The notes beneath the pieces are model-generated. The model was not told where the DNA came from and made no database searches. It saw only the letters and a list, made by a program, of their open reading frames with translations. Below, in pieces: positions 10,858 through 61,000 of a DNA stretch of 64,000 nt (its first letter is position 1; every line of letters begins with the position of its first letter). Source of the stretch: Bacillota bacterium (GTDB lineage Bacteria; Bacillota; UBA5301; Bu52). The stretch is taken from positions 1 to 64,000 of the forward strand of contig JADBKO010000006.1 in the NCBI GenBank assembly GCA_014896355.1, written 5' to 3'. Position numbers and translations under genes: made by a program.

Positions 10858-10886
10858 CAACGGCCGGGGAAAACCCCCAGCCGTTG
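10858..10886 (-). terminator. Rho-independent terminator downstream of the 10971-12230 gene
   Basis: Minus strand CAACGGCTGGGG-GTTTT-CCCCGGCCGTTG-TTTT: stable stem followed by T-run (AAAA at 10854-10857 on plus). Confidence 0.75.
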
Positions 10887-10914
10887 CTGCCCCTGGTTGA
10901 TCCGCAACCGGCTG

Positions 10915-10953
10915 CGCCGGCCGCCCGGGCTTTGTGGGCCCGGGCGGCCGGCG
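10915..10953. terminator. Perfect 16-bp GC hairpin between the OMP-like gene and the intrinsic terminator
   Basis: CGCCGGCCGCCCGGGC-tttgtgg-... GCCCGGGCGGCCGGCG, 16/16 pairing, no U-tract. Confidence 0.5.
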
Positions 10954-10970
10954 CTGGCCTTACCGGCGTC

Positions 10971-13746: not shown

Positions 13747-13852
13747 GTTACGTATTCCTCCATGCGGCGGTCCGTCCCCGCCCAGCAGATCCCGTCCCCC
13801 GCCAGCGGGCTGTACCCCGGTAGCCGCCGCGCTTTGTCAACGCCCTTGCCGG

Positions 13853-14206
13853 CTAGCGTTCCTGGTCCCGGACCAGGGACGTCAGCACCGCACTGATGAT
13901 GGACAACAAAATGGATCCCCAGAACGCGGCCCAAAACCCCAGCACCTCGAAGCCCGGGGTTACCGCATCCACCATCAGGAGGATCAAGGCATTGAGCACA
14001 AACGTGAACAGCCCCAGGGTTAGAACATTGAGGGGCAGCGTCAAAAGCCGTAGCACCGGCCGGATCAAGGCATTGACGATGCCTAGGATAGCCGCTGCCA
14101 CCAGTGCTGCTCCAAAGCCTTCAATGCGGATGCCGTGGACAATCTGCGCCACCAACAAAAGTCCAAGAGCATTCGTCACCCAGCGGAAAATCAGCCCAGG
14201 TACCAT
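13853..14206 (-). CDS. Phage holin 4_2 family (YvlD-like) membrane protein
   Basis: MVPGLIFRWVTNALGLLLVAQIVHGIRIEGFGAALVAAAILGIVNALIRPVLRLLTLPLNVLTLGLFTFVLNALILLMVDAVTPGFEV: typical DUF360/holin_4_2. Confidence 0.88.
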   Translation of the reverse strand: MVPGLIFRWVTNALGLLLVAQIVHGIRIEGFGAALVAAAILGIVNALIRPVLRLLTLPLNVLTLGLFTFVLNALILLMVDAVTPGFEVLGFWAAFWGSILLSIISAVLTSLVRDQER

Positions 14207-19451: not shown

Positions 19452-19469
19452 TTTCAGCCCCTGCTGGGT

Positions 19470-22382: not shown

Positions 22383-24531
22383 GCCGCACTGACTCCTTCC
22401 GTTCCGGAAGCTCCGCCCCTTCCTTGACGAGCAAAAGCTCCCTCCGCAAGGCCATGATCTCGTCGCGGACCTTGGCCGCCTCTTCGAACTGCAGGTCCCG
22501 GGCCAGGGCGTGCATGACCTTCTCCCGTTCCTTGATGTAGCGGGCCAATTCCAGCGGGCTCATGCGCTCCAGCCGCTGGCGCAGGCGGGCTGCCTCCTCC
22601 GGGCCTCCAAGCCCGGCCGGTACGCCGCCCATCCCATCCAGGCCGGGGCTGAGGGCAGAGACTGCGGCGCCGGCGCCCCCTGCTGCCACGCCTGCACCGG
22701 CGGCGCGGACATCGTACGCTCCCGCTCCTTCCGCCACGGCTTCCACGTGGATGCTGTCGCGGATGGCCTTCTGCACCGTCTCCGGCGTGATGCCGTGCTC
22801 CCGGTTGTACGCCATCTGGATGGCCCGGCGGCGATTGGTTTCCTCGATGGCCTGCCGCATGGAATCCGTGATGGTGTCCGCATACATGATCACGGTTCCG
22901 TGTACATTGCGGGCAGCCCTGCCGATGGTCTGGATCAGCGAGGTGGTGGAGCGCAGAAACCCCTCCTTGTCGGCATCGAGGATGGCCACCAGCGAGACCT
23001 CGGGCAGATCCAGCCCTTCCCGGAGCAGATTGATCCCCACCAGCACGTCGAATTCGCCCAGGCGCAGCCCGCGCAGGATGTCCACCCGCTCCAGGGCTTC
23101 GATCTCCGAATGCAGATAGCGCACGCGCACGCCGACTTCAGCCAGGTACTCCGTGAGATCCTCGGCCATCTTCTTGGTCAGAGTGGTCACCAGCACCCGC
23201 TCGTGCGCCTCCACCCGGCGCCGGATCTCATGCAGCAAATCGTCCACCTGGCCCTTGACCGGGCGCACCAGGACCTCAGGATCCACCAGCCCGGTGGGGC
23301 GGATGATCTGTTCCACCACCTGCTGGCTCTTGCGCATCTCATAGGGCCCGGGAGTGGCAGAGAAAAAGATGACCTGGTGCAGGTGCTGCTCAAACTCATC
23401 AAAGCGCAGCGGCCGGTTGTCCAGGGCTGAGGGCAGGCGGAAGCCATATTCCACCAGGACTTCCTTACGGGAACGGTCGCCTGCATACATTCCCCCCACC
23501 TGGGGGATGGTCTGGTGCGACTCGTCAATCAGCATGAGGAAATCCGGCGGGAAATAGTCCAGCAGGGTGGCGGGAGGCTCCCCCGGCTGGCGCCCGGAAA
23601 GATGCCGCGAGTAGTTCTCGATGCCCTGGCAATAGCCGATCTCCGCCAGCATCTCCAGGTCGTAGCGGGTCCGCTGTTCCAGGCGCTGGGCAGCCAACAG
23701 GTCGCCCTTGGCCCGCAGCTCCGCCAGGCGCTGCTCCAGCTCCTGCTCGATGGACTGCAACGCCGCCTTGCGCTTGTCCTCGGTGGTGACGTAGTGGCTG
23801 GCCGGATAGATCTTCACTTCCTCCGGCTGGCCCACGATCTCGCCGGTGACGGGGTCCAACTCCTGGATGCGCTCGATCTCATCGCCGAAAAACTCAATGC
23901 GCAACACATTCTCGCCGTAAGCCGGCACGATCTCCAGCACATCCCCCCGCACGCGGAAGGTGCCGCGGCTGAAGCCGTAGTCGTTGCGGACGTACTGGAT
24001 GCCCACCAGGCGCCTGAGAATACGGTCCCGGTCCCGGACATCGCCGGGCTTCAGGGACAGCGTGAGGCCCACATAGTCCTCGGGCGCCCCCAGGCCGTAG
24101 ATGCACGAGACACTGGCAACAATCAGCACGTCCCGGCGCTCGAACAGGGAGCTGGTGGCGGCGTGGCGCAGCCGGTCGATCTCGTCGTTGATGGAGGCGT
24201 CCTTCTCGATGTAGGTGTCTGTGGTGGGCACGTACGCCTCGGGCTGATAATAGTCGTAGTAACTGATAAAATAGTGCACCGCGTTATGCGGGAAAAACTC
24301 CTTGAATTCGCTGTACAGCTGGGCGGCCAGGGTTTTGTTGTGGGCCAGCACCAGGGTCGGCTTTTGCACCGCCTGGATGATATTGGCCATGGTGAAGGTC
24401 TTGCCTGTGCCCGTGGCGCCCAGGAGAGTCTGAAAACGCAGGCCCCGCCGCAGCCCGTCCACCAGCCGCGCGATGGCTTGCGGCTGGTCGCCGGTGGGCT
24501 CATACGGGGCCACCAGTTGAAACGAAGGCAT
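22339..24531 (-). CDS. uvrB: Excinuclease ABC subunit B
   Basis: [52 protein letters not shown]...; start ATG 24531. Confidence 0.98.
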
Positions 24532-24579
24532 AGCCGTACCTCTCCCTCGGCGCAACACGCCAGCGGTAAATCCGCATCT

Positions 24580-24608
24580 ATTATAGCATAGGCGCCGGGA
24601 AAAACATA
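24580..24608 (-). promoter_or_regulatory. uvrB promoter with extended -10
   Basis: Minus strand TATGTT-N17/18-TGCTATAAT (TATAAT at 24580-24585). Confidence 0.6.
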
Positions 24609-24614
24609 CGTTCG
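24601..24614. promoter_or_regulatory. Putative LexA/DinR SOS box upstream of uvrBAC
   Basis: Minus strand CGAACGTATGTTTT vs Gram-positive consensus CGAACRNRYGTTYC (13/14), overlapping the -35. Confidence 0.75.
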
Positions 24615-24616
24615 CT

Positions 24617-25729
24617 TTACTTTCCTGCGCGGGGCGCACGGCCCGGGAGCGGGGAAGCCGGATGGCGCAGAGTGTGCAGCCAGGCCCGGTAGCGCGTCCA
24701 GGCCGCCGCGTCTGCGGCCACCTGGGACACCGGGACCAGCCGGATGCCCTCCGCAACCAGCCTGGGAAGTGTGTTCTGCAGGGCCCGCAGGGTGTCCGGG
24801 CGCAGATGCCCGATCCCTACGGCGACACCCCAGCGGCGGGCGGACACCGCCAGCTCCTGCAGCCTGCGCTCTACAGCGGCCACGCCGGGCTGGCTGTCCA
24901 GGAAGCCTTGATTGATGACGCAGGGGACGCCGTAACGCCAGGCCGTGTCGGCAGCCACGGAAAACGGAGTGGTGCGGGAATCCAAGAAGAACAGGCCTCT
25001 GCCCGCAAAGACGGAGAAGAACCGCTCCATGACCGCCCGATTGGCAGTGGCCAGGGACCCCATGTGGTTGTTGGCTCCCACGGCCATGGGGATCTCCTTC
25101 TGCGCAGCGTCCAGAAGGGCGGCGATCTGTCGAACGCCGCTGGCCAGCGTCACCCCGGCCCCACCCATGGGCCGGCCGTCCGCAGGCTGCATGGGGATGT
25201 GTAGGATCACCTGCCAGCCGTGGGCCTGCCCCAGGCGAGCCTGGAGGGCGCTTTCCGGCAACCCGGGCAACACCGACATGGTGAGGGGATACGGGAGGTC
25301 TAAGAAACCGGCAGCCTCCGGACGGGGATAGCCCCAGTCATCAATGATGATGGCCAGGCGCGGCTGCCGGGCCGGCGGTGGCCCGGGGAATCCCGTGCCG
25401 GGAGCCGCCGGCTCCGGGGCGGAAGGCGGCTGCGGCGCAGCTGGAAGGCCTGTAGGCGCCGGCGGGCGCTGGCCCGGTTGCACGCCGGCCGCCGGGCTGG
25501 TCTGGACAGCGTCCACCCGGACCCGGTGCGACAAGGCCGGTTCCGCAGGCCCGGGGTTGGAGGTCCGGAGCCAGGCCGCGTCGCTCGACACCCGGCCGTC
25601 CTCCGCCAGACCCCGGGCATAAGCCCACAACGCAACCCCGGTCACGGAAACCCAAGCAACGAGCGCGATGCCGGCACAAACTGCCGTGGCGACCTCACGC
25701 CGCATGGTCCCCCCAGCCCGCCGCCACAT
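24617..25729 (-). CDS. Divergent polysaccharide deacetylase family protein
   Basis: [94 protein letters not shown]. Confidence 0.9.
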
Positions 25730-33392: not shown

Positions 33393-35429
33393 TTAGCCCC
33401 GCCGGCGGCGTTTTTCCCGCCACACGGTCCAGACGAAGCGGGGCAAAGCCAACCCCCGGCGCCAGCGGCGCGGGTCCCGCGCCAACCGGTAGAGCCACTC
33501 CAAATGCCAGCGTCGGAAAAGCTCCGGAGCCCGGGGAACCTTCCCGGCCAGCACATCCAGGGATCCCCCGACGCCGATCCCCACGGGCACCCGCAGCTCC
33601 CCCAAATGTGCATCGAGCCAAAGCTCCTGCCGGGGCGCTCCCAGGGCCGCCACCAAAATGTCGGGACGGGCCTCGCGAATGGATGCCAGCAGCGCCGGCT
33701 CGTCCCGGGAGCTGAAATATCCGTGATGGTGGCCACAGACCTGCAGCCCGGGATAACGCGCCGCCAGATGCAGCGCCGCACCTTCCGCCACTCCCGGCTC
33801 GGAGCCCAGGAAGTAAAACCTCCAGCCGGCGCCGGCCCCTGCGGCACACAGGGCGGTCAGCAGATCGATGCCTGCCACCCGCTCCGGTACTCCGCTGGCC
33901 AGCTGGCGGGCGGCCCAGACCAAACCGACCCCGTCGGCGGTGACCAGAGCGGCCTTGCGGATGGCCCGCGCCACCTCAGGCCGGCGGTGGGCCTGCAGGA
34001 CGATCTCCGGGTTGGCCGTCACGATCAGGTGGGGCTCGACGGGGCCGGCACCTGGCCGCCGGGCTTCCCGGATCCAGGCTGCCACCCGGTTCACGGCCTC
34101 GTCCTGCGTGACGCGGTCCACGGGGATGCCCAGGACTTCCACGCGATCCTCGGCAGCCGGAGGGGCTTCGCCCGGCAGCGGGCCCGCCGCGCTCCGGCGT
34201 ACTGTGGTCTTTTGCCGGGCCTGGGCCAGATGCAAGACCCGCTCCGCCAGATCCGCCGCCGCCTGCTGCCAATCTGGCGCCTGCTCCCGCAAGTGTTGGG
34301 ATAGGCTGGCACGTCCGTTCCAGGCTTGCTGCAACGCTTGCCGAAGGCCGTCTGCCTGGAGCTCCGCCACCGGTCCAGCACTGGGCAGGCCCACTTGACG
34401 CGCGAAACTCCGCACCTTGGGGTCATACTCGATGGCCAGGGCCGGCACCGCCGCCCTGGCTGCCAGGATGAGGCTGTGCAGCCGCATCCCCAGCAGCAGA
34501 TCCAGGTTCGCCACGGCGGCGGCGGCTTCCCGGAGACGTAGGGGACCCTCCTTCTCCAGCCAGCGGGCATCAATCTGGCTTTTCGGCAGACCCTCTGCCA
34601 CCAGCGCAGATCGGAGTTCCCGCGCCAAAGGAGCGTCCACTGGGGCATGGAATGGCAGCAGGACCACCTGCCATCCGCCTTCCCGGGCCAGCGGTGCCAC
34701 CGCTTCCGAGACTGCGCTGACCAGGTTGCCGGCCTCCGCCCAAGGCCGCAAAGCCAGCCCTATCCGGGCCGGTCCTGCCCCGGCCCGCTCTCCGGTCCGG
34801 CCCGCATTCCCACCCCCGGCGGCGGAATACCCTTGCCCGGGGCCCGGTGCAGCGGCGGCCGCGTCCGCAGTGGGCAGCCTCCGCTCCTCCTGCCAGGCCA
34901 GAACCGGATCCACCGCCAACTCCACCTGGGCCAGGGCCCTGCCGCTCAGTTCCGCCAAAAGGCGGGCGGACTCCGCATCCCGGGCGCTGAGCAACGCGGC
35001 CCTGCCGGCAGCTATGGCCGTCAGCCGGCGCGATATACGCCGCTGCAACGGGCCCACGCCTTGGGCGTAAAACACCACGGGGCATCCGGCCCAGGCGGCC
35101 AGCAAGGCCAACGCCGCATAGTAGGCCACGCTGCGGACGCTGGTGGCATCCTGAAAAAGGCTCCCGCCTCCCAAAAGGAAGGCATCGGCCCGGCGGATCT
35201 CTTTCCGGAAGGCCCTCCAGTCCATGCGGCCAATAGATTCAATGCCCAGATTGCGGGAAGTCTCGCCGGGCTGCCCGGACAAAGCCACCAGGGAGAGACC
35301 TTCGTCGCCTGCAGGCGCGAGGCCGCCGCCGCTGGACGCAGCCGCCTGCAGCTGCTGGACCATGGCCTCCAGGATGGCGTCATCTCCCAGGTTTCCCATG
35401 CCGAAATATCCGGCCAGCAACAGACGCAT
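33393..35429 (-). CDS. csaB: Fusion: polysaccharide pyruvyl transferase (CsaB) + WecG/TagA/CpsF glycosyltransferase
   Basis: N-terminal MRLLLAGYFGMGNLGDDAILEAMV...GGGSLFQDATSVRS (CsaB); C-terminal VEVLGIPVDRVTQDEAVNRVAAWI...TANPEIVLQAHRRPEVARAIRKAALVTADGVGLVWAAR...GAPRQELWLDAHLGELRVPVGIGVGGSLDVLAGKVPRAPELFRRWHLEWLYRL (WecG/TagA). Confidence 0.93.
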   Translation of the reverse strand: MRLLLAGYFGMGNLGDDAILEAMVQQLQAAASSGGGLAPAGDEGLSLVALSGQPGETSRNLGIESIGRMDWRAFRKEIRRADAFLLGGGSLFQDATSVRSVAYYAALALLAAWAGCPVVFYAQGVGPLQRRISRRLTAIAAGRAALLSARDAESARLLAELSGRALAQVELAVDPVLAWQEERRLPTADAAAAAPGPGQGYSAAGGGNAGRTGERAGAGPARIGLALRPWAEAGNLVSAVSEAVAPLAREGGWQVVLLPFHAPVDAPLARELRSALVAEGLPKSQIDARWLEKEGPLRLREAAAAVANLDLLLGMRLHSLILAARAAVPALAIEYDPKVRSFARQVGLPSAGPVAELQADGLRQALQQAWNGRASLSQHLREQAPDWQQAAADLAERVLHLAQARQKTTVRRSAAGPLPGEAPPAAEDRVEVLGIPVDRVTQDEAVNRVAAWIREARRPGAGPVEPHLIVTANPEIVLQAHRRPEVARAIRKAALVTADGVGLVWAARQLASGVPERVAGIDLLTALCAAGAGAGWRFYFLGSEPGVAEGAALHLAARYPGLQVCGHHHGYFSSRDEPALLASIREARPDILVAALGAPRQELWLDAHLGELRVPVGIGVGGSLDVLAGKVPRAPELFRRWHLEWLYRLARDPRRWRRGLALPRFVWTVWREKRRRRG

Positions 35430-35439
35430 CCTGCCCGCC

Positions 35440-37800
35440 CTACCTTTGCGGCGCCTGGGGATGCGGGTGCCAGACTCTCAGCACCAGCCCCAGCAACGCC
35501 ACGACCAAACTGGCTATGACAGTCCCCAGCCAAAGCCCGTTGAACGTACGCCACAAGGAGATTTCCAGCGGTGTGTGAATGTGGCTGAACGTGTTGTTCA
35601 GGGAGACCAGCGGGATCAGGGCGCCGGACGCCGCAGCCAGCCAGAGCAGGCGCAGGGCCGTCTGGCACCACGGAGGGGCCTCGGCTGCCCACCCCCGCAC
35701 CCGCGGGCTGGCCAGCGCATACGCGGCCAGCAGAAACGCCGGATAGCCGATGAGAAACTCCTTGGTCCGGGGCCGGATGGCCAGCAGATTGGTGAGGCCG
35801 CTGCGCATGGCCTGTTCCAGGCCCGTTACGGGCACCGGCGCATCATTGCCGGTGCGCGTCAGATAGACATACACCACCACGAAGGCCACCAATCCCACGG
35901 CCAGATGCCAATACTTCAACGAACTCTTTCCCCAACGCCGGACCGTAGCGCCCAGGCTGCGAAGGGACCAGGGGGGAACCGGCAGCGGGCGGCTGATGCG
36001 CCATCCTGCCAGCAGCACCGCCAGCAGCAGGGGTAGCAGATGCGCCACCTTGACGCCGGCAAAGGGATAGATCTGGACCATGAAGCGCGTTTCGCCCAAC
36101 AAGCCCACGATGAACAGGCATCCCACCAGCGCCAGCGCCGCCGCCAGCCACATGCGGCCTACGGCCCAGAGCCAGGCCTTCCACTCGCCGGCCGCAGGGG
36201 GAACCGGCTCTGCCGCAGGGCCGGCCTGCTGCCGGCCGGCTTGGTCCGCCGGTGTTTCAGACGGTGCGCTGAGCCAGGCAACCCCGCCGGAGAGCCGCAT
36301 GAAGGCATACCACCAGGCTGAGGCAGGAAAAACCAGTGCAGCGCCCAGAGCCCAGAGCTGGCGGTCCAGCACTGTGTAGCCCTTGAGGTAAAGCGCCAGG
36401 GCCCCCAGTTCACCCAGAACCCACAACAGGGCCCACCCACCCGGTGCGCTGTAGCCGAACATCCGGGTCAGCAGCCAGATGGCCGCCGCCATCACGGCGC
36501 CCGCCATGAGCATAATGCTGGCCGGGGCCCATCGCGGCGTTACCAGAGCAGGCAAAGGCTGCGCGATGCCCGTGGTAAACCCTTCCCGGGCCAACGATTC
36601 CCGTAGCCGGCCAAGAAAGTGGAGGTTGTCCTCCCACAGCTGCCTACCGGTCTCCGGTGCCGAACCCTGGCCCTGGGGCGCCGCCGGCATCTCATCCATG
36701 CCGGCCACGGCTGTTCCGGTCTGGTCCGGGAGCGATCCTTCGGTACTGGTCCCGACCATCCCGCCGGGTGCGGAGGACGGCAAGCCCGGCGGCGCGGCAG
36801 AGCCCGGCAGTATTCCCGCCATGGCCACGGGGCGCAAATAGAGCAGGCGGATCCCCCGCTCCCGGACAGCCAGGAGATAGCGGTCCAGCAACGCAGGTGG
36901 GCTCATCTCCGCCTGTTGGGCGGGCGGAACACTATGCGCCCGAACCACCTGGTAACCCAGGCGCTTGGCGAGCCCGTTCATCCCCTTCTGCGCCGAGAAC
37001 TCCACAGTAACCAGGGGCCAGCCCCGTTCCCGCAGAGCCTTGGCCATCGGCTCCAACAAATTGGGATACCCCAAGGCCTCCCCGCCGGCAAAGATCACCC
37101 GGTCGCGACGGGACTGCGCTCCTGTGGGCCAGGTGGCGAGCCACTGGCGCAACAGCTCGGGCGTCAGTCCTGGGACGTTGGCGGTGCGCAATACTACAGC
37201 CAAGCCGGCCGAGCGGGCCAACGCCAGCTGCCGCTGGTTGACTCCCAACCCCAGAGCCAACACTGTGTCCAGATTCAGCGGGATGGCCAGCACCCTCCCG
37301 GTGTCCCGGCCCGGGCCCAACGTCTGGGCGCCGAGGATCTGTGTCCGCAGGCGCAAAGCCTCCCAGGCCTGGTTGGCTGCACCCTGGGGGGCGCCTGGGG
37401 CAACGCGGACGTAGGTGTAATCAGGATAGATATGGTTCCATCGCAATTCCTGCCAGGCCGGAGGAAGCCTGCCGCTCAACGCCTGCCATCCGGCCAGGTC
37501 CTGGCCGCTGACGGCCTGCAACACCCCGTCCGCCACATAATCGGCCACAGTCTGCTCACCGATGGCCAACGCGTTCACCCCGGCGGAGGCTACGGCCCGC
37601 ACCGCCTGCGCCACGGGCACCCCTGAAACCAGGCTCAGCTCATAGAGGGACGGGTAGTCCATCACCAGCTCGACGGTACGAGAGCGGGCCTCGCTCCGCC
37701 AGCGGTCCACCGCAACGGCCAGGGCCACGAGGGAACCTGCCAGAAAGACCAGCAACAAAAAAACCGAAAATACGCGCCATCCCCACTGCTGCTTCTCCAT
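35440..37800 (-). CDS. DUF5693 family multi-TM protein
   Basis: N-terminal TM, FAGGEALGYPNLLEPMAKALRERGWPLVTVEFSAQKGMNGLAKRLGYQVVRAHSVPP, RDRYLLAVRERGIRLLYLRP-like motif, C-terminal TM array; adjacency to csaB is typical for DUF5693. Confidence 0.82.
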   Translation of the reverse strand: MEKQQWGWRVFSVFLLLVFLAGSLVALAVAVDRWRSEARSRTVELVMDYPSLYELSLVSGVPVAQAVRAVASAGVNALAIGEQTVADYVADGVLQAVSGQDLAGWQALSGRLPPAWQELRWNHIYPDYTYVRVAPGAPQGAANQAWEALRLRTQILGAQTLGPGRDTGRVLAIPLNLDTVLALGLGVNQRQLALARSAGLAVVLRTANVPGLTPELLRQWLATWPTGAQSRRDRVIFAGGEALGYPNLLEPMAKALRERGWPLVTVEFSAQKGMNGLAKRLGYQVVRAHSVPPAQQAEMSPPALLDRYLLAVRERGIRLLYLRPVAMAGILPGSAAPPGLPSSAPGGMVGTSTEGSLPDQTGTAVAGMDEMPAAPQGQGSAPETGRQLWEDNLHFLGRLRESLAREGFTTGIAQPLPALVTPRWAPASIMLMAGAVMAAAIWLLTRMFGYSAPGGWALLWVLGELGALALYLKGYTVLDRQLWALGAALVFPASAWWYAFMRLSGGVAWLSAPSETPADQAGRQQAGPAAEPVPPAAGEWKAWLWAVGRMWLAAALALVGCLFIVGLLGETRFMVQIYPFAGVKVAHLLPLLLAVLLAGWRISRPLPVPPWSLRSLGATVRRWGKSSLKYWHLAVGLVAFVVVYVYLTRTGNDAPVPVTGLEQAMRSGLTNLLAIRPRTKEFLIGYPAFLLAAYALASPRVRGWAAEAPPWCQTALRLLWLAAASGALIPLVSLNNTFSHIHTPLEISLWRTFNGLWLGTVIASLVVALLGLVLRVWHPHPQAPQR

Positions 37801-46209: not shown

Positions 46210-49200
46210 CTAAAAACCGGCCTGGATCATGGCCTCCGCCACATACGTCCTGTATGGCGCCTGCGGCGGCTTGCGGCCGAATACCACGCTGGTCGCGGCT
46301 GTGGCGCTCCAGACCGGGGAGAATTGGTGGGCAAGGCCGCCTCCCAGCTTCAGCTTCTGGCTGCTGTCCGGCCGGCCTCCGCTCATGCCTGCGGTCTGCG
46401 CCAACTCTCCGTCCAGCTGCAGGGACCAGGACGGGCCCAGGGCAAAGGCCACCTGCGTCTGCAGGCCATAGGTGGAGACCGCCGTTTGATCGGCCGGATT
46501 CTCCTGGCGCTGCCAAGTCAGGAGGCCCGTGGTCTGCACGGCAGGGGACAAGAGCCAGGTCAAGCGCAGACCGGAATAGGCCTCGGAACTGCCCTGCACG
46601 CCGTACTCCGGATGGGCCACCTGGCGCAGGTGGTAGCTCAGATCCAGCCCCGGCGTCAAGGCCGGCGTCAAGAGCACGCTCAGGTTGGCACTGAGGCGCC
46701 CCTCGGTCTCCAGCTTGGCATCGGCCGGCCAATGCGTGCGGGTCCAGGTCAGGGCCACGGACGGCAGGATGGTTTGGCTGCCGCCCTGCAGCGAGGCCTG
46801 GGCCCACCAGGTGCTGCGGGGATGACCGTTGGCCAGGTCCATCTCCAGCCAGCGGCCGTTCAGCGCCGGAGTCAGTCGTAGATTGCCGAGGCTCAGCCCG
46901 GGCGCAGCCAGCCCCAGGTTGGCTTCCTGGACGAGTTGGCGCCGGGAGGGCTGCGCAGGCGTCGCCCCCAGGAGCACGTTCGTCCGCTGCCGGTAAGACG
47001 CCTGGGTCCGCACCGGGCCGAGCCCCTTGCCGTTCTGGCCGCTGCCCGCGCTGTTCCAGGCCAGCCCCCAGTCCAAGGATTCATTGCCCTGCCAGGCAGC
47101 GTCCCATCCTACGTCCGCGGGCTGCGACTCGGCGGCCTGGGCCTGAACCCAACGGATCTGGAAAGGGCGGCGGTAATGGGCATCGGCCGTGAGGCCCGGG
47201 AGCAGAGCGGCGCTGATACGGGCATCCCAGGTCTGCCCCTGCCAGGTCCATGGGCCCTGCCAGCCCAGGCCCAGCTGGCCAGCGTCGTAGCCCAGGCTCC
47301 AGCGCAGCCGGTTCTCCCACCAGGAGGCGGACACGCTGGTTCCCACCGTGCTCCCCACCTCGTCGAAATCCGGGGAGCCGGTGCGGTCCAGCCGGTTGAG
47401 GGAGGCGCGGGCCCCCAGCCGGATGCCGGTGGCGCCCACCTGCCAGTCGGCGTTTACTCCGTCCGTGACGGTGCGCACGGGGCGCTCTTCCCAGGCCCCG
47501 CTCCAATCCCGCCTGCGCACGGCCTTATCGCCATGTTCCAGCGACACCTGCGCCTTCCCGTCCGCCAGTTCCAGCCGGCCGCCGGCAGACCACTGGCGCT
47601 GATCCAGGCGTTCCGTGCGGCCAATGGCCGTAAATCCGGGTTGCAGGGACTCGGCCTGCAGCCATAGGCCCAGTGGGCCCAACTTCTGTTCCAGATAAAG
47701 GCGCGCCGCCGCTCCCCGGGCGGTATGTGTGCCGGGGTCCAGATCTGCGTAAGCGCCGCTGTCTTCCAACGGCACACCGGTCTGGCTGCTGGCAAAGCGG
47801 ACAATACCCGCAGCGCCGCTGCCAGGGCCGGGGCCGGACCCGGACCCGGCGCCGTTTCCCGGCTCATAGAGCCAAAGCGGGAGATCCCCCTGGCCGTCCG
47901 GCCCGGGGCCCGCTTGGCTGCCGGCCCAAACCTGATCCGCCGGAACGTAGGGAAAGGCCGCCGTGGCCAGGGCAGTCATGGGTTGGTCACTGGGCACGCA
48001 AAGCCACCAGTCCCCGGGCCCTGCCGGCAGACCCGCCACAGTGGCATACAAGCCGGCCGTGGTGGCCGCATAGAGGCTTGTTCCGCCGCCGGAATCCAGC
48101 CAGGCCAAAGCCAGCACCGGGGCCGGCGGCGGGCTGAGGCGGCGCGTCTGGTATTCAGCCGGGCCGCCGGCGGCCGGCCGGATCTCCTCCACGCTCCACA
48201 GCTCGCCGCTGGCCAGCACCGTCGCCACGATCTCCCCGCTGCCGCCAGGCTCCGCTGGCACAGCCGGCGCCGCTCCCGGTCCCGGTACGGCCAGGGATTG
48301 CACCGCCCGCCCCGGCAGCAGGATGGACGCAGGCCCGGAACCCCCATCCTGCCAAACGGCCAAACCTTGGGGCGTTCCTGCCCATACCCGACCCCGCAGC
48401 GGATCCGCAACCAAAACAGAAACCTCTTGGGAGGGCAAGCCTGCCTGCAACCGGTGCCAGGTGCCCAGGCTGGATTCTGCCGCCCATGCCAGACCCAGTG
48501 GCGTCCCGACCCAGATCCGGCCCGTGGCCGAATCTGCCGCCACGGCGGTCACTTGGCTGGAGGGCAGGCCGTCCGCGGCATAATAGCGATTCCAGTTGAC
48601 GGCCTGGTCGAAAGGGCTGGCCCCGGGCAGGCTGGAGGCTTTGGCCACCCGGGTCAGCCCGCCGTTGGTGGCGATATACCACGCTGTCTCCGTCTGGGCC
48701 AGGGCCCGCACGTCGTTGCCGGCCAGGCCCGCAGCCAGGGTGTAAAGGCGCCACTGCCCGCCCCCGGCGCCGGCAGCCGCCTCCTGCTCCGCCGGCCCGG
48801 CGTACACCGTCAGGCCGCTGCGGTGCCCGAACAGCACGTACGGCCGCCCGTCCGGCGCCGTCCCGGCACTCACCGCCTGCACGACGTTCGGCAGATGCTC
48901 CCGTTGGTTGTCGTCAAAGGGGAAGACGTTCTGGCTGAAGGCTGCATCCACCTGGGCTGAGAGGCCCCCGGCTTGCCAACGGCCGCTGGCGCCCACCACT
49001 GTGTGGGCCCCCGGCATGACCGGCACCTTGGCGGCTTCCGCCGGCGGCAAGGGCCGCTCCGCCGCGCGCACCACATCCAGCTGCAGGCGGTGCCCGGCGT
49101 CCGGGCTCCAGCCCAGGGAACACCCGAGCACGTCTTCCTGATAATATCCCGCCACCCCCAGGGCGCCGCGAAAGTATTCATAGTCGATGCGCAGAACGTC

Positions 49201-50856
49201 CTGGGGCCCTGCATCGCGCAGGAGTACCAGGATGCCGGCCTCATAATCCAGAGTATAGTCCGTGTCCCGCTTCAGAAGGACTCCGTTCAGATACACCCGT
49301 TCCGAACCGTGCGCCACCGCCACTCCCAGGGGATAGACGTTGTCCGTCACCCGATAGCGGTACTGCACCCGCACCCGGTCCGCCGCCGGATCCCACTGGC
49401 CTGGCGGCGGAAACTGGATCCGCATCATCCCGGCGTCGTAATAGATCTGCCAGGAAAAGCCGGCGATCTGCGCCGCAGGCCGCCACAGGCCCTGGATCTG
49501 CACTTCTACCTGCTCCGAGCCCGGCTCGATCCCTTGGTTGCCGAGGTCATAGAAGCCCCAGCCCTGGCGCAGCCGCGGGTCCGGCGGCGGCTGCGGCTGG
49601 AACAACCCGGGGTCGCCGGGCGCCGGATACAGCACGCCGGCTTCGGGCCCGTCCCCTTCCGGCTGGCGGGCCACCCGCAGAAAGCTATAATCGGACAGCA
49701 GGGTGCCCAAAAATTGCGCTTCCAGCTGGGAGCCCTCCACGAACGGATAGGTCTTGGCCTCTGCCCCCCGCAGGCTATGCAAACGATTGTATTCATTGAG
49801 AATCGCCTGGATCAGCGTGCGCAAAACCGCCTCCGGCGGGCGCCGTAGAACGAGATAGCCTTGTCCCTGGTATTCCAGCGCCGCATAGGTGCCCGGGGAA
49901 ATGCGGCGCAGGGTGCCTTCCACCAGTGTCCCTTCGGTCTCGCCGCTGCTGCCGGCGCCCAGAAAGCCCAAACCATACGCCTCCAAAAACTCCTGCAATG
50001 GCCGCGACGCCGTGGGCGTGCGTCCAAAGCGCACCCAGACCCGGTGAAAGTCCGAGTCGAAGCGCGGGGCGGCCAAAGCATACCAGAATGCCCCCCGGAT
50101 GGACGCGGTGAGGGAACCGTTCTCCCGGACCGGCGCGTAGGGCCCGTCCAATCCGGAATAGACCACCTGGTCGCTGCTGGCACCCCCGGTAAAGGTTTTG
50201 CTGGCCGGGATTCCCTGGCCTTGCGCCACAAACGCCCGGCCAAACCAGGGACCCTGGTGGGCCTGCAGCTCCACCCCCCGCAAGCTGGGGCTGTAGCCCA
50301 GGTACGGGTTGGGGCTCTGCCAAAGAAAATCCCCGAAACGGGCTTGCCAGGGACCGTGGGCCAGAGTGAACGAAGCCAGCTGCAGATTGTCGGATTTGGC
50401 GTTATCCACGTGGGCATCCAAGGCCAGGACGTCGCCTACATTGCCGCCGACGTCCACGGCGATGCGCTGCTTGAGGGTCAGCTGGCCGGGGACCAGGTCT
50501 TTCCGGCCTTCCAGGCCTGCCGGGTCCCCCCAGGCGTAGCCTCCCAGCCATTCCAGATGGCCGTTGAGCTGCCAGCCCGACGCCGCCCCGGCCGCCAGTG
50601 GGGGCTCGCCCGGCGCAGATTGCGCGTCCGCTGTCCCCCCCGGTGCGGACTGCGCGGGTGCCGCATCCGAAGCGGTCTGTCCCGTGGCAGCGTGGCCGCC
50701 CAGGTCTCCGGCAGGCTCCTGAGCAAGGGCCAGGGCGGAAAAACTGAGCCCCACCCCCGCCCCGAGCAGGATCCAGAAAAACGCTGCCATGGCTAGGGCG
50801 GCCCGGAACCCCCGCCCACCGTTCCGGATCTGCTGCCATGCCCGCCGCCGGCCCAT
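46210..50856 (-). CDS. Giant outer-membrane beta-barrel protein, SprA/Sov-like, with inserted beta-propeller
   Basis: N-terminal signal/TM; FGDFLWQSPNPYLGYSPSLRGVELQAHQG; GSERVYLNGVLLKRDTDYTLDYEAGILVLL resembling SprA-family GSExVxLxGxLLxRGxxxDYxIDYxxGEI; central Reg_prop-like repeats (GLPSSQVTAVAADSATGRIWVGTPLGLAW); many amphipathic strands; ends ...AEAMIQAGF. ATG 50856 preceded by GGAGG. Confidence 0.6.
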   Translation of the reverse strand: MGRRRAWQQIRNGGRGFRAALAMAAFFWILLGAGVGLSFSALALAQEPAGDLGGHAATGQTASDAAPAQSAPGGTADAQSAPGEPPLAAGAASGWQLNGHLEWLGGYAWGDPAGLEGRKDLVPGQLTLKQRIAVDVGGNVGDVLALDAHVDNAKSDNLQLASFTLAHGPWQARFGDFLWQSPNPYLGYSPSLRGVELQAHQGPWFGRAFVAQGQGIPASKTFTGGASSDQVVYSGLDGPYAPVRENGSLTASIRGAFWYALAAPRFDSDFHRVWVRFGRTPTASRPLQEFLEAYGLGFLGAGSSGETEGTLVEGTLRRISPGTYAALEYQGQGYLVLRRPPEAVLRTLIQAILNEYNRLHSLRGAEAKTYPFVEGSQLEAQFLGTLLSDYSFLRVARQPEGDGPEAGVLYPAPGDPGLFQPQPPPDPRLRQGWGFYDLGNQGIEPGSEQVEVQIQGLWRPAAQIAGFSWQIYYDAGMMRIQFPPPGQWDPAADRVRVQYRYRVTDNVYPLGVAVAHGSERVYLNGVLLKRDTDYTLDYEAGILVLLRDAGPQDVLRIDYEYFRGALGVAGYYQEDVLGCSLGWSPDAGHRLQLDVVRAAERPLPPAEAAKVPVMPGAHTVVGASGRWQAGGLSAQVDAAFSQNVFPFDDNQREHLPNVVQAVSAGTAPDGRPYVLFGHRSGLTVYAGPAEQEAAAGAGGGQWRLYTLAAGLAGNDVRALAQTETAWYIATNGGLTRVAKASSLPGASPFDQAVNWNRYYAADGLPSSQVTAVAADSATGRIWVGTPLGLAWAAESSLGTWHRLQAGLPSQEVSVLVADPLRGRVWAGTPQGLAVWQDGGSGPASILLPGRAVQSLAVPGPGAAPAVPAEPGGSGEIVATVLASGELWSVEEIRPAAGGPAEYQTRRLSPPPAPVLALAWLDSGGGTSLYAATTAGLYATVAGLPAGPGDWWLCVPSDQPMTALATAAFPYVPADQVWAGSQAGPGPDGQGDLPLWLYEPGNGAGSGSGPGPGSGAAGIVRFASSQTGVPLEDSGAYADLDPGTHTARGAAARLYLEQKLGPLGLWLQAESLQPGFTAIGRTERLDQRQWSAGGRLELADGKAQVSLEHGDKAVRRRDWSGAWEERPVRTVTDGVNADWQVGATGIRLGARASLNRLDRTGSPDFDEVGSTVGTSVSASWWENRLRWSLGYDAGQLGLGWQGPWTWQGQTWDARISAALLPGLTADAHYRRPFQIRWVQAQAAESQPADVGWDAAWQGNESLDWGLAWNSAGSGQNGKGLGPVRTQASYRQRTNVLLGATPAQPSRRQLVQEANLGLAAPGLSLGNLRLTPALNGRWLEMDLANGHPRSTWWAQASLQGGSQTILPSVALTWTRTHWPADAKLETEGRLSANLSVLLTPALTPGLDLSYHLRQVAHPEYGVQGSSEAYSGLRLTWLLSPAVQTTGLLTWQRQENPADQTAVSTYGLQTQVAFALGPSWSLQLDGELAQTAGMSGGRPDSSQKLKLGGGLAHQFSPVWSATAATSVVFGRKPPQAPYRTYVAEAMIQAGF

Positions 50857-50963
50857 GGAGTCCACCTCCTACCGCTGCCACTGTCCCGCCGGCGCAGGCC
50901 GGGCGAGGCGCCCTTTTCCCGTGTACGCCAGCGTCTCGCCGGCCTGCATCCCAGCCTGGGGGC

Positions 50964-52067: not shown

Positions 52068-55000
52068 TTAGCGCTCGACCACCAGCTTCAGCACCGGCGA
52101 CGACCGCCCGCTGTTGGTGACCAGGACGTAGAGGTACAGCCCCGGAGCCAGCGGCGTGCCGTGGCTGTCCGTCAGATCCCAGAGGTAGTGGGTCTCGCCC
52201 TCCGCCACCTCGTGCCGGTAGGCCAGGCGTCCGGCGCTGTCGTAGACGTAGAGCGTGCCGCTCACACCTTGGGCGAAGTAGAAGGTCACGGTGCGATCGG
52301 CCGGGTTCGGGCCGGCAGCCACCAGGCCGGAGAGCTTCACGATGGTGAAGACCGGGCTGACGGCGCTGGCCTTGGCTCCCTGCGTATCCGTGACCGTCAC
52401 CTGCACTTGGTAGAGCCCGCCCTTGGGCACCACGGCTGTATCCCAGAGGTAGGTGCCATCGTTGGCCTCGCCGGCTGCGATCTCCGTCCAATGGGTGCCA
52501 TCGGCGGAGAAGGCCAGGCGGATCTGGAGGCTTTCCGCCGGATCATCGGGATCCGTGGCCGTCCACCGGATGGCCTCCTTGCCGGTCCAGACCGCACCGG
52601 CAGCCGGGGCGGTGATGCTCACCTGCGGCGGCAGATTCACGACCTCCACCTTCTGGCGGGCAGGCTCGACGCTGGGGGCGCCGGTGCTGTCCCAGACGGT
52701 GAGCGCCACCCAGTGGCTGCCTTTGGTGGTGTAGCGGTGCTGCGGGTTCTGCTCCGTACTGGTGGTGCCATCGCCGAAGTCCCAATGCCACGCCACAACC
52801 TCGCTGTCGCCCGGCTGCGACGCATCCCGGAATTGCACCGTATCCTGGATGGTCGGTTGAGCCGGGGTGAAGCTGAAGCCCGCCGTGGGCGCCACATGCG
52901 ACACCCCGGCTGCGAGGATGGCGCCGCGAAGCTGGTTCAGGCTGGGCGACGTGTCTGGGCCGATCTCCATGCGGATGAAGCCACCGTACAGGCCGCCCTC
53001 GCTGGAGTCCCGGTAAGGTACAGCGGACTGCTGGCTGACCGGCGCCCACTGCCCGGTGGCAGCGTCGAACCAGTAGAGAGCCAACCCTTGCGGATCCATC
53101 CCCTGCGGCCAGTACCAGTTGAGAACGATCCTTCCGATGCCGCTGACGCCGTCCGGGCCGGCCACAGCCTCCGTCGGTTGCAGAGCGAAGTAGGCATTGC
53201 GGCTGTTGAACAGGGCGGCGTGCGATGCCACCGGGTTGCCGCCGAAGCAGGTCAAAACGATCTCCGGCAGGTTCCCGTCGCCCGGGACCTCCGTGGGCTG
53301 CTGGGCCCGCTCATACCACAGGCGCAGGTCTTTCAGCGGATAGCCGTCAGTGACTGGCTCCATGATGAAGAGCGTACCCGTCACCGGTGCCGCCGGGCTG
53401 CCCACCACCAGGGTCTGCCAGGCCGTGCTGCTGCGGGCGCCCAGGTTATCCGTGACCCACAGCTGCACCGTGTAAATGCCACCCTGGGCGTAACGGTGCT
53501 GCGGGTTTTGGTCCAGGCTGGCGGCCCCGTCGCCGAAGTCCCAGTGCCAGGCGGCTACGCTGCCGTCCGGGTCGTGGGAACCATCGCTGAATCGCACGGG
53601 TTCTTCTGTACCCCGGCTCTCCAGGCCCGGGTGGTTGTAGGTGAAGGCCGCCACCGGCGCCTGGGTCACCGTGAATTGCGGGCTCACGACCACCGTGGAA
53701 CCGCGGTCCTTGTCGGTGACGGTGATGCGCACCTGCACCCGATCACTGGGCCCTACGCCCGCGAGATTCCAGGTGTAGCTGCCGCTATTGGGCAGGTTTT
53801 GTTTGATGCGGCTCCAGGTCTCGCCGCCATCCTTGCTGTATTCCAGGGCGACGGCGAGTTCAGTGCCGTCCTCAGGATCGCTGGCGTTCCACCGGATCTC
53901 CAGGCTGGGTGTGGTCACGATCTCTCCGCCCGCGGGTACAGTCAGTTCCACCTGCGGCGAACGATGGAGGGTGAAGTTGCCGCTCTGGGCTGTGGCGTGT
54001 TGCCCGTACGGATCCTTGACCGTCACCTGCACCTGGTAGAGATCGCCTACGGGCAGGCCGTTGGTATCCCAGTCATAGCGGCCGCTGTTCTCGGCATCCT
54101 GCACCAGCACCGTCCAGGTCTGGCCGCCGTCGCCGGAATAGGCGAGATCCACGGTCAGCGCCTGGTCATCGCGGGCCGTCCACTGGATGGGTGTCACGCC
54201 CTCGACCACCGAGCCGGCAGCGGGTTTCTGGATGCTCACCCGGGGGATGCCATTGATGGTCAGGTCCACCGGTACCACCGCCACCGGGCGATAGGGATCA
54301 TCCGCCATGACTCGGATGCCCGTGTGGTACACGCCCGGCGCCGCCGTGGGCGAGCCGAACGTCACGACGACATCCTGGCTCTTGCCCGGCAGCACCTGCC
54401 CGGAATCGGGATTCACACCCACCAGGCTGCCGATGGGCGTGAAGCCCACGGCCAAGCCGTCTTTCACGTACTGCGCGTTGTAGACCACTTCCAGGCCCAC
54501 GCTGCCACGGGCGTTCTCGATGCCCACCGTGGCGCTAGTGAGGTCTCCGCGCATGGACTGGTACTGGTAGAGAATGGTCCCGTCCGGCTTGAGAATGATC
54601 TGGAACGTATAGCCCACCTGGGCACCCCACTGCGGCACGTCTTTGAATTCCACGATGAAGCGCCGGTGAGCCTCATCGTAGTAGTAGTAGACATGGCCCG
54701 CAGCGCCGGGATCCAGATCGTCCCAAAACGCCGCCAGGATGTCATTGGGCTCGGCACTGTTGGGGATCGGCGCGTTCTCGAAAAAGCCCCGGATGCTCTT
54801 GCCGAAGGTCAGGTAGCCGTTGGAGCAGATGGCCACCTGGCTCTTGCTCTCCCCATAGAATGGGAAGGGGAACGGCAGAGGCACCGTGACTCCGGACTCG
54901 TCGTCCAGCGTCACCGGGGTCCCGATTTCGCTGATCTCCAGCCAGTCGTACGCCGGGCCGCCCTCTTGGTCACTGTCCATCCAGACGTAGCCGTAGGCGT

Positions 55001-58000
55001 CCGGGCCGCCGGCGCCATAGGTCACCGGCCAGCCGTGCAGCTCCTTGGCGAAGTCGCCTTTCCGGTAGGAGCGCTCTGCTGCAAAGCGCTGGTACTCCGC
55101 CGTCTCGCCGAAGCTGGGCGCCAGGGCCAGATGGAAGTTGAGAGGCGCCTTGCCGTCGTTGCGGATGGTCAGCGGGCGCTGATCCTGCTGCCCTTCGGTG
55201 AGGAACACGTCGAAGGCATCCGGCGTGACGCCCAGGACCGGCAGCCAACGGACTTCCACCTGTACCTTCTGGGACACTTCCACGCCGTTGGCATCCTTGG
55301 CGTGGATGCTGGCTTCGTACGTTCCCAGGTTCGGGTAGACGTGGCTCGCTGTAGGTTGATGCACGGCAGCACTGCCGTCGCCAAAATCCCACCACACGTC
55401 GACCACAGGCGCAGCACCGGCCTGCACCGTGGCGCTGAAGCGCACCTCGAGGGGCGGCTCGCCCACGGCCGGTTCGGCCTTCACATCGCTCAGCACCGGC
55501 GCAGGCAGGATGTGCACGTTGACGTCCACACCCAGCAGGGGCCGGAACGGATCATTGGTGGTGATCTCCAGGTAGTTGGTGTAGTCCTTGCCGGGCTGGC
55601 CCAGTTCACTGGCTTTCACCGTGACGGCGAGATCCTGGGTCTGCCCCGCCGGGATCGTTCCCGAGCTGGGCTCCACCTGAATCCCGCGGGAGATGGGCAT
55701 ATCCGTGTCCACCAGGTAGGCGCGGTTGTTCATGGCGACGACCCACAGATTGCCGTCCTCGTTCAGCTCCAGGCCGGCACCCTGGTACTCGCCGCCGGAC
55801 GGGGCCTGGAACTGGTACACCACAGCCCCGTGCTCCAGATCCAACCCGAAGATCATGTCCGGCGAGCCGTTATTGGACACCCAGAGGATGCCCCCCGGAT
55901 GCCAGGCCAGGCCGGCGATGCCCACCGGGAAGGACCAGGCTTCGATGACTTCGCCCGGATGGCTGTGGCTGAGACCCCGGATGTGGTAGATGATGTCCTG
56001 GTTCCAGCCGCCGATGTAGAAGGTGTCGGTGGCTGCGTCATAGGCCAGGCCGCGCTGGGAGATCCCGGTCCAGGGGCCGGAGGTGATCTTCTGCCGGACC
56101 TCGCCGGTGGCGGGGTCCAGGCCGTAGATGCCGTTGTCGCCGCCGACATTGACCTGCCAGATCAGATTGTGGTTCGGATCGTAGGCCATGTCACCCGGCC
56201 AGGATCCGGCCCACGGCGTCGCGAAGGTCTTGCCGGTGTAGACGCCCTGCGGCGTCACCAGCGAGTCCTTCTTGACCTGTGGGTCGCTGATCCAGACATT
56301 CGTCTGATCGAAGCCGGCGCCCCAGGCCAGGGTGATCGGCGACGGCACCGGCCAGGACAAGAGCACCTGGCCCACTCCGTCGGGCCGTACGTTGCCCTGC
56401 AGGCGGTGCACCTGCTCCGGTGTGAGCGGCTGGAAGAGCCCGCGGGCCGTAAGGGCGTCAGGGTCGGCGATCTTGCCGCCAGCGATGCGCTGCGGCAGCA
56501 CGATGGCCGGCGAGGCGCCGGGCCGCACCCGCACCTTGAACTGCAGCGGAGCCTTGCCCTGGGCATTGCCCACGGTCACCGTATGGACCTGGAAGCCATT
56601 GCCCGGCAGGGTGAACTCCAGCTGCGTGGGATCCACCGTGGCCCGCGGCAGATTGCGCACGTCGACGAGAATCTGCGTGCTGGCTGTGCCGCCCAGCTGG
56701 TCCACTGCGGTGAAGGTGGCCAGGAACTGGCCCTCTGCCGTGTAGACGTGGGAGGCATCCAGCGTGGGCTCGCTGCCCACGACCGGGGCGCTGCCGTCGC
56801 CGAAGTCCCACTTCACGCTGGCCAGCGGGGTTTCTGGCGCCTGCACCACCGCATGGAACTGTACCGTCAGAGGCGGCTCGCCGAGGGTCGGAGTGGCCGT
56901 GGCCTCCTGGATCACCGGTGCGGCCGCCACATGCAACTGCACCGGGACCACAATTTGCGGGTTCTCTGGGTCATTGGTGGCCAAAGAGACCGCGCCACTA
57001 TGGTCGCCGGGCCGCAGATTGCGGGCATCCACCGTCACCGTCAGCTGCTGAGAAGCCCCCGCAGTCACGGTGCCGCTGGCTGGAGCGACCTGCAGCCACC
57101 GGCCGATGGGGCCTAGGTTGGTAGCCACCAGGTACATGGTGTTGTTGCCCTGGGAAGCGACCCACAGATTCCCATTGGCGTCGAACTCCAAGCCCGCGCC
57201 GTTGTAGTCGCCGCCCGCCGGATGGGCAAACTGCGCCACAATGGCGTGGCTCTCGGCATTGACGAAGTAGAGGGCATCCGGCGCCGCATTACTGGCCACC
57301 ACCAGGATCTTCGCCCCCGGATGGTAGGCCAGTCCGGAGATGCTCACCGGCATGGACCACTGTTCCAGAACCTCGCCGGGATGATCCCAGCTCAGGCCCT
57401 TGAAGTGGTAAATGATGTCCTCGTTCCAGCCGCCGATGTAGAAGGTGTCGTCATCGGGGTTGTAAGCCAGGCCCCGCTGCGAGACTCCTGTCCACGGGCC
57501 GCTGGTGATGGAGGCCACCACCGCGCCGGTTTGCGGGTTCAGCTGGTAGATGCCGTTGTCGCCGCCGACATTGACCTGCCAGATGAACTGGCCGTCAAAG
57601 GCCATGTCCCCTGGCCACGATCCGGCCCACGGGGTGCTCCAGGAGGTGCCGGTATAGGCGCCGGCCGGAGTCACCAGGGCGTCCATCTTCTGCTGGGGGT
57701 CCGAGATGGCCAGATTGCCGCTGTTGCGGTCCACGGCCACGCCCCAGGCCAAGGTGATGGGCGAGGGCGCGGTCCAGTGGGCCAGAATCTGTCCAGCGTC
57801 CAACGGTTGGATGGCCCGGCGCTCCTGGTCCGCCAGCGGGGCGTAGAGGCCGCGGGCCGTGCGCGCCAGCGGGTCCACACCGCCAGCGCCGGCATTCGCC
57901 GCACCCACCGTGCCGCCAGCTCCTGCCGTACCCGGCCGGCCCACGGGCCCGGCCAGCCGTTTGGGCAGCTGAATGCTCTGGGACGCCGCCTCGGCGCCGA

Positions 58001-61000
58001 AGCGAAGAGCCCCCGGCCCAGCGTTGCTCAGGGTCAGCGAAGCACTCCCCGTCCGTCCCTGGGCGACGCGCAGGAAGATCTGATGCGGATCCCAGCTGGC
58101 TGCCGGCGGCTGGCCCACCTCCACCTGCACCCGGGCGGTGGCCTCATACCCGTCGTTGTCCACGGCATGGAACGTGGCGGTATAAGGACCCTCGTGCCCA
58201 TAGGTGTGGGTGGTGGTGAACTCGTGCACCGGCTGGCTGCCGTCGCCGAAGTCCCAGTACTGGTCGGCGATGCGGCCATCCGGATCCTGGGCCGCAGCCA
58301 CGAACTGGAACTGCGTCTCCACCGGGCCCCGGGCCGGATTGACCCCGGCGGCCGTGATGACCGGCGGCTGGTTCGGCAGCACATCCACGTGCACAGGCGC
58401 TGCAATTTCCGGATGCAGCAGATCATTGCTGTCCAGAACCAGGCGGCCGTCCAGGCTGCCGCTGGCGATGGGCCGCAGGTCGAAGAGCACCTGCACATCC
58501 TGGCTTGCTCCCGGCGCCACGCTGCCCTGGCTGACATTGGTCGACAGCCAGGCGAAGGGGTAGAAGAGCACCGCCAGGCCATTGTGCACGTAGGGGGCGT
58601 TGAAGACCACCTCCAGGCCATCGCTGCCGTCGGCGTTCTCGATACCCACCGTGGCACTGTTGGCTTTGCCGCCGAAATTCAGCGGCGCTTCGGGCGGCCC
58701 GTACTGGTAGAGAATGCGGCCGTCCGGGTAAAGGATGGCTTCAAAGGTCAGAGCTCCGGTATTGGGATAAAGAGGCACCTGGTACCATTCCACGACGAAG
58801 CGTTCATGGGCCGCATCGTGGTAGGTATAGACGCTGCCAGCCCGGTTGGGACTCAGGTCGTCCCAATAGACGGCCAACAGGTTGTTGGGGGTATTGTCGT
58901 CCGGAATGGGGTCGTTGCTGTAATCCCCCGTCGTGCTCCCGAAGGTCAGATACCCGTTGGAGCACACGCTCAGCGACGTATACGTCCCACCGTAGAACGG
59001 GAACGGCCACGGCAGATCCACGGACACGCCGCTGTCATCGCCCAGGTTCACCCGGTTGCCGGTGGTGGTGATATCCACCCACTCGAAGGTGGGTCCGCCC
59101 GGCTGGTCGCTGTCCAGCCAGATCATGCCGAAGCGGTCTGGCCCACCCCTCCCCAGCCGGCCTGGGCGCGGATCGGGCTGATCCTTCGCGCCGTTCCAGT
59201 CCGGCGCATCCGGGGCCACCCTGGGCACCACCTGCGCCGGAGTGCCGGCGGTCTCCGCCCGGAGCGTGAATTCCAGGGGCACATCGCCGCTGTTGCGGAT
59301 GGTCAGAGTCTCCGTACGCGTGCGGTGGGCCCGGATCGCAGCCGTAAACGAGGGCGGCGTCAGCGATGCCGAGGGCTGTGGCCGCGCCACGATGTGGATC
59401 GTGCGGGTGGCCCGCAGGCCCTCGTCGTCGATTACCGTCAACGTGGCGTCATACTCGCCCTCCGTTTCGTAGGTGTGGCTGGTGCGCAGCTGGCCATCGG
59501 AAGGCGCGCCGCCGTCCACCGGGGCGCTGCCGTCCCCGAAGTTCCACTGCGAGGCCACCACCCGGCCGTCCGTGTCCCCGACCTCGGCCGCGAACTGCAC
59601 CGTCAGCGGCGTCTTGCCGGCGAAGGGCTGCGCCGTGAAGCTGCGGATCACCGGCGGGATGAGGGCATTCACATGCAGGAAGGCCTCCACGTTGATGGCC
59701 GGGGTATCCGGGTCATCGCTCTGAACCACCAGCGTGGCCGGATAATCCCCTTCCGGCCGTTGGCCGGCCTTGAAGGTGACTGCCACATCGGCACTGGCCC
59801 CCGGGGCCACCGTACCCTGGCTCGGCTCCACCGCCAGCCAGAACGGGTAAAACTCCACCGCCAGATTGTCATGCAGATAGGCCTGGTTGAAGGCCACCTG
59901 CAGGCCATCGTTGCCGGCGGCATTTTCGATACCCACTGTGGCTTGGTTCAGGGTTCCCCGCATGGTGAGATACTGGAATTTCACCGTACCGTCCTTCCGC
60001 AGGATGACCTCGAAGGTGTTGGGCGTGCTGCTGCCCCAGCGCGGCACGTTCTTGTATTCCACCACGAAGATTCCGGCAGCGGCGTCCCCGTAGTAGAGGA
60101 TCCGGCTGCCGCTTCCCGGGTTCAGATCGTCCCAGAAGGGCGCGATCAGGTCATTGGGCTGGCTCGGGTTGGGGATCGGGTCGTTGCTGTAATCGTCCCC
60201 GTTGGTCCCGAAGGTGAGATAGCCGTTGGAGCCGATACGCACCTGGGTTTTCTGCTGCCCGTAGAACGGGAAGGCAAAGGGCAGGTCCACCAACGCGCTG
60301 GCGTCATCCCCCAGGTTCACGGGAGTCCCGGTGGAGGTCAGATCCAGCCATTCAAACGCGGGCCCGGTCGGTGCGTCGCTGTCCGCCCATTGGTAGCCGG
60401 AGTGGTCCGGGCCACCGGCGCCCTCCGCCACCGGCGGGCCTTGACGCGGATCCACCTGCCCCTTGGCCACCTGCAGATCGGGGATAGCGGGAGCAGCACC
60501 CGCCGGAGCGCTGCCCGGGATGGCCAGCCCGCAGCTGTAGTGCAAATCCCCCTGGCCGCTGTTGGTGATGGTCAGGTGCTGGGTCTCTTCCTGACCCCAG
60601 TCCAGGGAAGCCTGCAGAGACGTGGGGTTCACGCCGATATGCGGCGGGAAGAACACGTGGATCCGGACCGTGGCCACAGATTCCAGGCCAGCGTTGTCCA
60701 CGGCGTGGAACTTGGCCTCGAACCATCCCTGCGCCGTGTAGGTGTGCTGCGCGTTCGCGGCATGGAGCGGCGCGCTGCCATCGCCGAAATCCCACCACAT
60801 ATCGGCGATGGAGCCGTCCACGTCGTGGGCCGCGGCCTCAAAGGTCACGGCCAAGGGCGGTTCGCCCTGGGTCGGCGTGGCCGTGGCCCGCTCGATGACC
60901 GGCGGCAGCGAGGCCGCCAGGGCGTTGGCGGCATTCAGGCGCCCGCCCGTGACGCACTTCCCCGCCAGGGCCGGTTTGCGATCTACCGTATCCAGAATCA

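Follow-up and report, generated by a model that had tools for sequence, protein, structure and literature searches.

What is a β-propeller doing in the middle of a giant outer-membrane barrel protein of a Bacillota bacterium? The question is raised by a 1551-aa ORF in a contiguous stretch of 64,000 nucleotides (contig JADBKO010000006.1, positions 1 to 64,000; the window). An initial annotation, made from the letters of the window and its ORFs, proposed that Reg_prop-like blades lie within this protein, that they are flanked by barrel-like strands of a SprA-like translocon, and that they may have a connection to PorZ. All three peptides quoted in support of these proposals are located in the ORF, which begins with an N-terminal signal peptide (~aa 1–48). 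The features of the locus are collected in Table 1.

Table 1. Features of the barrel gene and its neighbours, with positions in the window
Feature	Position	Strand	Details and basis
Predicted SprA-type outer-membrane translocon gene with putative propeller cap	46210–50865	-	1551 aa, GTG start; ORF, TIGR04189, hhalign and fold of homologue L033
Barrel strands 1–7, aa ~97–245	50131–50577	-	Count from L033 model mapped by alignment; predicted for the window protein
Insert 1, aa ~246–574, between strands 7 and 8 as in SprA	49144–50130	-	
SprA motif GSERVYLNG..DTDYTLDYEAG within insert 1	49228–49308	-	
Barrel strands 8–11, aa 575–647	48925–49143	-	AlphaFold2 of window protein: four strands, 13–15 residues each
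Seven-bladed β-propeller, aa ~656–1040, at SprA strand 11–12 cap-insert position	47746–48900	-	
Barrel strands 12–36, aa ~1048–1551	46213–47724	-	AlphaFold2 of aa 440–1190 and L033 model
PorV/PorQ-family carrier, 305 aa	50964–51881	-	NF033709 E 2.7e-22, 79.8 bits (cut-off 90)
Cargo subtilisin (S8); carries Ig-like domains, PKD among them, and a C-terminal sorting domain	52068–62510	-	
Type IX-like C-terminal sorting domain (Por_Secre_tail) of cargo	52101–52310	-	TIGR04183 32.2 bits, cut-off 23

A seven-bladed propeller at the cap-insert site of a SprA-type barrel

Called from the window sequence alone, the propeller is borderline. A Pfam scan of the protein did find a Reg_prop (PF07494) repeat, although only one, and at 20.3 bits it falls just below the cut-off of 20.4. 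Scanning the window's own genome with PF07494 gave no match at E ≤ 1e-3, a null result that misleads because single blades score below threshold. A profile of 21 homologues matched two-component propellers, with E values of 6.9e-24 (4a2l), 5.4e-20 and 6e-17. We modelled aa 440–1190 of the window protein with AlphaFold2, using a 20-sequence alignment (pLDDT 82.2, pTM 0.70). In this model, aa ~656–1040 form about 28 short strands arranged in four-strand sheets, making seven blades, and these blocks mostly have pLDDT values of about 75–96. Long barrel strands of 10–15 residues border the propeller on both sides, as the initial annotation had supposed. Foldseek searches against the PDB matched the model to seven-bladed RACK1-type propellers (TMt about 0.65) and also to PorZ (E 2e-8). 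The family profile, AlphaFold2 and Foldseek agree, and they confirm one complete seven-bladed propeller inside the 1551-aa protein, with the repeats closing into a propeller rather than forming barrel strands or linkers in the part modelled. The span first given for it, 47930–48890, had the right location but missed the last blade, the propeller reaching ~47746 in the model.

The surrounding barrel is of the SprA type. The NCBIfam model TIGR04189 (SprA) matched the window protein over aa 499–552 with 21.8 bits (E 2.2e-5) against an equivalog cut-off of 200, and hence we do not file the protein as an orthologous SprA. When the family was compared by hhalign with seven SprA-type proteins (from Bacteroidota, Gemmatimonadota, Zixibacteria, WOR-3, TA06 and Glassbacteria), the two aligned with a probability of 99% (E 4.9e-18) across 483 columns of the N-terminal half, and the local match stops at the start of the propeller. 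The 21-homologue profile matched SprA 6h3i with an E value of 1.1e-9.

A near-full model was obtained for a Bipolaricaulota homologue, L033 (residues 58–1257; pLDDT 84.1, pTM 0.61). Counting its DSSP string by hand gives the order strands 2–7, insert, strands 8–11, propeller, strands 12–36. Thirty-five strands are visible, and strand 1 is placed in the 31 mature residues outside the modelled span. The predicted total for L033 is thus 36 strands, the number in SprA; the window protein is known through this homologue and its own partial model. The four best PDB matches of the L033 model are all SprA (8gl8, E 2.4e-20; 8gl6; 6h3i; 6h3j), and both insert positions of SprA, between strands 7–8 and 11–12, are found in the family too. 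The hhalign result and the SprA top folds, along with the adjoining PorV and sorting-tail cargo genes, bear out the proposal of a propeller within a SprA-like translocon and support assignment of the 1551-aa protein as a SprA-type translocon with a propeller inside.

According to a review that cites the SprA structures (PMC9127263), the two folded inserts of SprA, at strands 7–8 and 11–12, form a cap that seals the extracellular end. A profile of the second SprA insert strongly matched ten proteins of the SprA set and found the SprA-type fold of the 11–12 insert in no member of the family; it also weakly matched a 38-residue stretch of L043. The propeller profile matched 24 family ORFs and none of the SprA-set proteins. 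Since the cap and propeller profiles never share a protein, the propeller and the SprA insert are alternatives at one site. The propeller looks to occupy and replace SprA's own strand 11–12 cap insert, a cap swap rather than a random insertion.

A tree built from the N-terminal halves places the barrel family in one group and the SprA set in another (100/100). Sporadic insertion of the propeller was considered and rejected, because all family members examined but one bear it. The exception, L036/L010 (UBA5435), is nested among the bearers, which also contradicts sporadic insertion, although that row is long-branched. It groups beside the bearers with values of 96/89, on a long branch that makes its placement not certain; the position fits a putative loss of the propeller. 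This protein of 1035 aa has a short loop at the propeller site and constitutes a natural lidless version. Having neither the propeller nor the SprA cap, it indicates that a cap is not strictly essential.

Carrier, cargo and accessory components

The PorV-family gene and the CTD-tailed subtilisin gene lie directly upstream of the barrel gene on the same strand. The D/H/S motifs of the subtilisin are intact, and its ORF is open to 62957, with 62510, ahead of the signal peptide, the likelier start. The window's genome contains a second cassette in the same order, on contig C105, comprising an M6 peptidase with a CTD, a PorV (NF033709 95.6 bits, over the cut-off of 90) and a barrel. The TIGR04183 matches of the CTDs score 32.2 and 29.3 bits (cut-off 23). 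The barrel of the C105 cassette (1–4519) is a SprA-type paralogue interrupted by the contig end.

Cargo, carrier and barrel genes are found together, in varying order, at seven loci of Bacillota and three of Bipolaricaulota, and at two further loci (L028, L040) the cargo is together with the barrel. Cargos across loci are mostly S8 or M6 peptidases. In 17 genomes, a PorV-family gene lies directly downstream of 24 of the 28 above-cut-off CTD genes, on the same strand and after a short gap. These pairs are often far from barrel genes, and most of the 17 genomes carry one barrel; judging from gene content and position, one pore may serve several cargo–carrier pairs. At L009/L035, a propeller-bearing barrel gene (~9833–13895) immediately precedes V-type ATPase genes and has no PorV next to it, and the cargo–PorV pair of that genome is located elsewhere (C31:132140). 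A more distant SprA-like barrel from the window's class, at L011, extends over two overlapping frames (7124–8878 and 8607–10190); it has no match to the propeller profile and adjoins a PorV gene and an M6 peptidase gene with a FlgD/CHU_C-type tail.

In the system of Type B CTD cargo with its cognate PorP/SprF shuttle (PMC12618676, PMC9143113), too, each cargo gene is immediately followed by its carrier gene, and this arrangement suggests cognate pairs and a carrier that remains as anchor. The paired carriers here belong to the PorV/PorQ family, unlike the SprF of the Type B system in Flavobacterium (PMC12618676), and the CTD, unlike that of Type B cargo, matches the Por_Secre_tail model (TIGR04183). 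In Bacteroidota, Type A cargo shares a shuttle from the PorV/PorQ family, whereas here members of this family are cargo-paired.

Transport through SprA in Bacteroidota requires the motor. The motor protein GldM and the ring protein GldN were detected in 0 of the 17 barrel-family genomes, most of which are incomplete MAGs, and were present in the control genome (G092, Sphingobacteriaceae). When the 17 genomes were searched for PorU, matches were confined to the CTD end of the model, and the control genome gave none either. As the TIGR04189 cut-off is missed and neither GldM nor GldN was found, we use the names SprA-type or type IX-like rather than standard T9SS. The protein and its neighbours are a variant of the SprA translocon, not a new kind of system. 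They share with SprA the 36-strand barrel plan, folded inserts at 7–8 and 11–12, the insert 1 motif, a PorV-family partner and CTD cargo. They differ from it in that the second cap insert is a propeller, the proteins are shorter (1.0–1.7 kaa versus 1.8–2.4 kaa), and the family occurs in Bacillota and Bipolaricaulota, with GldM and GldN not found in the genomes searched.

Possible roles of the propeller

Our best reading of the locus, to which we assign a probability of roughly 70%, is that it encodes a SprA/Sov-type 36-strand translocon in which a seven-bladed propeller stands in place of the second cap insert, and that the whole would act as a type IX-like outer-membrane exporter with the propeller as putative pore lid. 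The propeller probably lies outside the cell, because the barrel has its ends in the periplasm and the propeller comes after an odd-numbered strand. Like the SprA cap, it would shut or constrict the pore at its outer end. The folded protease would go in from the periplasm; within the pore, its CTD would bind loops of PorV and probably the propeller as well. In PMC10994853, the CTD within the pore binds SprA and the loops of PorV, and the PorV–cargo pair would likewise exit by a side opening, as described there. Because the search detected no catalytic domain of PorU (the control failed too), and because most cargo genes are followed directly by a PorV gene of their own, each PorV would probably stay on as a permanent anchor for its cargo. 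One caveat here is that the AlphaFold models draw on alignments of about 20 sequences (pTM 0.70 and 0.61), and hence the placement of the propeller with respect to the pore is not reliable.

Alternatively, the propeller could be a fused PorZ-like docking or attachment platform that receives exported cargo or envelope glycan at the cell surface, and not a closure of the pore. We consider this unlikely. The propeller fold matches PorZ, the 21-homologue profile has a weak sequence match to PorZ 5m11 (E 0.0095), one family member matches the PorZ_N propeller family, and PorZ is a surface component required for cargo processing (PMC5121618). However, the PorZ model gives the window protein only 10.6 of 260 bits, the reaction that PorZ serves appears to be absent, given the PorU result above, and the propeller occupies exactly the cap site of SprA. 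While each system has a β-propeller of related type alongside PorV-family proteins, PorZ is exported as a protein in its own right and has two propellers plus a CTD (PMC5121618), whereas here a single propeller lies within the barrel and has no CTD of its own. Descent of the propeller from PorZ was not adopted, since sensor propellers score far better than PorZ 5m11 with the 21-homologue profile and the PorZ model stays far under its cut-off. What stands of the PorZ connection drawn in the initial annotation is therefore a likeness in fold and a weak one in sequence.

The sensor propellers themselves point to another conceivable role, which we hold to be improbable: the domain could sense a ligand, in the manner of the propellers that hybrid two-component systems have in the periplasm, and gate the channel on binding an outside molecule. 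The propellers of those systems (4a2l, 3v9f, 3ott) are the closest sequence relatives of the blades, but they are sensor domains of kinases and have no barrel. Propellers of this type serve many jobs, and this one is kept in at least two phyla alongside cargos of diverse kinds, which does not point to one ligand.

Greater doubt still attaches to the idea that the barrel is some other large outer-membrane channel, not a protein translocon, with PorV and CTD-protease genes as its neighbours by chance. The TIGR04189 score is indeed far under the equivalog cut-off, and export through the barrel is a prediction from sequence and models; yet independent genomes repeat the trio, the genome of the window has it in two cassettes, and the SprA fold match is well ahead of every other barrel. 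That the repeats are barrel strands or linkers, or the fusion an assembly artefact, is scarcely credible despite the lone Reg_prop repeat near the Pfam cut-off, as the propeller is modelled at high confidence and the architecture is shared by more than 20 assemblies, single-contig genomes among them.

Distribution and meaning of the architecture

The barrel is present (E ≤ 1e-20) in 23 of 398 sampled genomes of the window's phylum, including three single-contig genomes, and the barrel copies of these three carry the propeller. Named relatives come from Bacillota MAGs, a Limnochordaceae MAG, Bipolaricaulota/Acetothermia and one Thermotogae MAG. Limnochordia are a diderm Firmicutes lineage (PMC10628300). 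Elsewhere in the window, a possible porin (10971–12230, - strand; Porin_4, just below cut-off) is consistent with an outer membrane. A gene at 33393–37800 (- strand) encodes a fusion of polysaccharide pyruvyl transferase and WecG/TagA glycosyltransferase; it adjoins a gene for a DUF5693 protein and recalls the CsaB pathway, which prepares cell-wall polymers for SLH-type tethers. The genes uvrC, uvrA and uvrB are consecutive at 17157–24756 (- strand).

In published surveys and reviews, type IX secretion is said to be confined to Bacteroidetes (PMC4793230, PMC7463736). In the open-licence literature we found no description of a propeller-capped SprA, or of type IX secretion in Bipolaricaulota or Limnochordia, which is no proof of novelty. 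We tentatively propose, at somewhat short of even odds, that diderm Bacillota, Bipolaricaulota and possibly Thermotogota have a separate type IX-like branch, with no GldM or GldN, perhaps no sortase, a propeller lid, and proteases each anchored by its own PorV. This branch may represent early or reduced type IX secretion.

Outside Bacteroidetes, a SprA-type translocon that comes with a carrier and tailed cargo, and without GldM and GldN, would offer a simpler version of type IX secretion, one that would let the contributions of motor, sortase and cap be asked separately. The architecture aids annotation of large uncharacterised barrels encoded by diderm Bacillota and by Bipolaricaulota. Under the pore-lid reading, a different fold capping the same loop hints at the physical task of the cap and makes that task testable.
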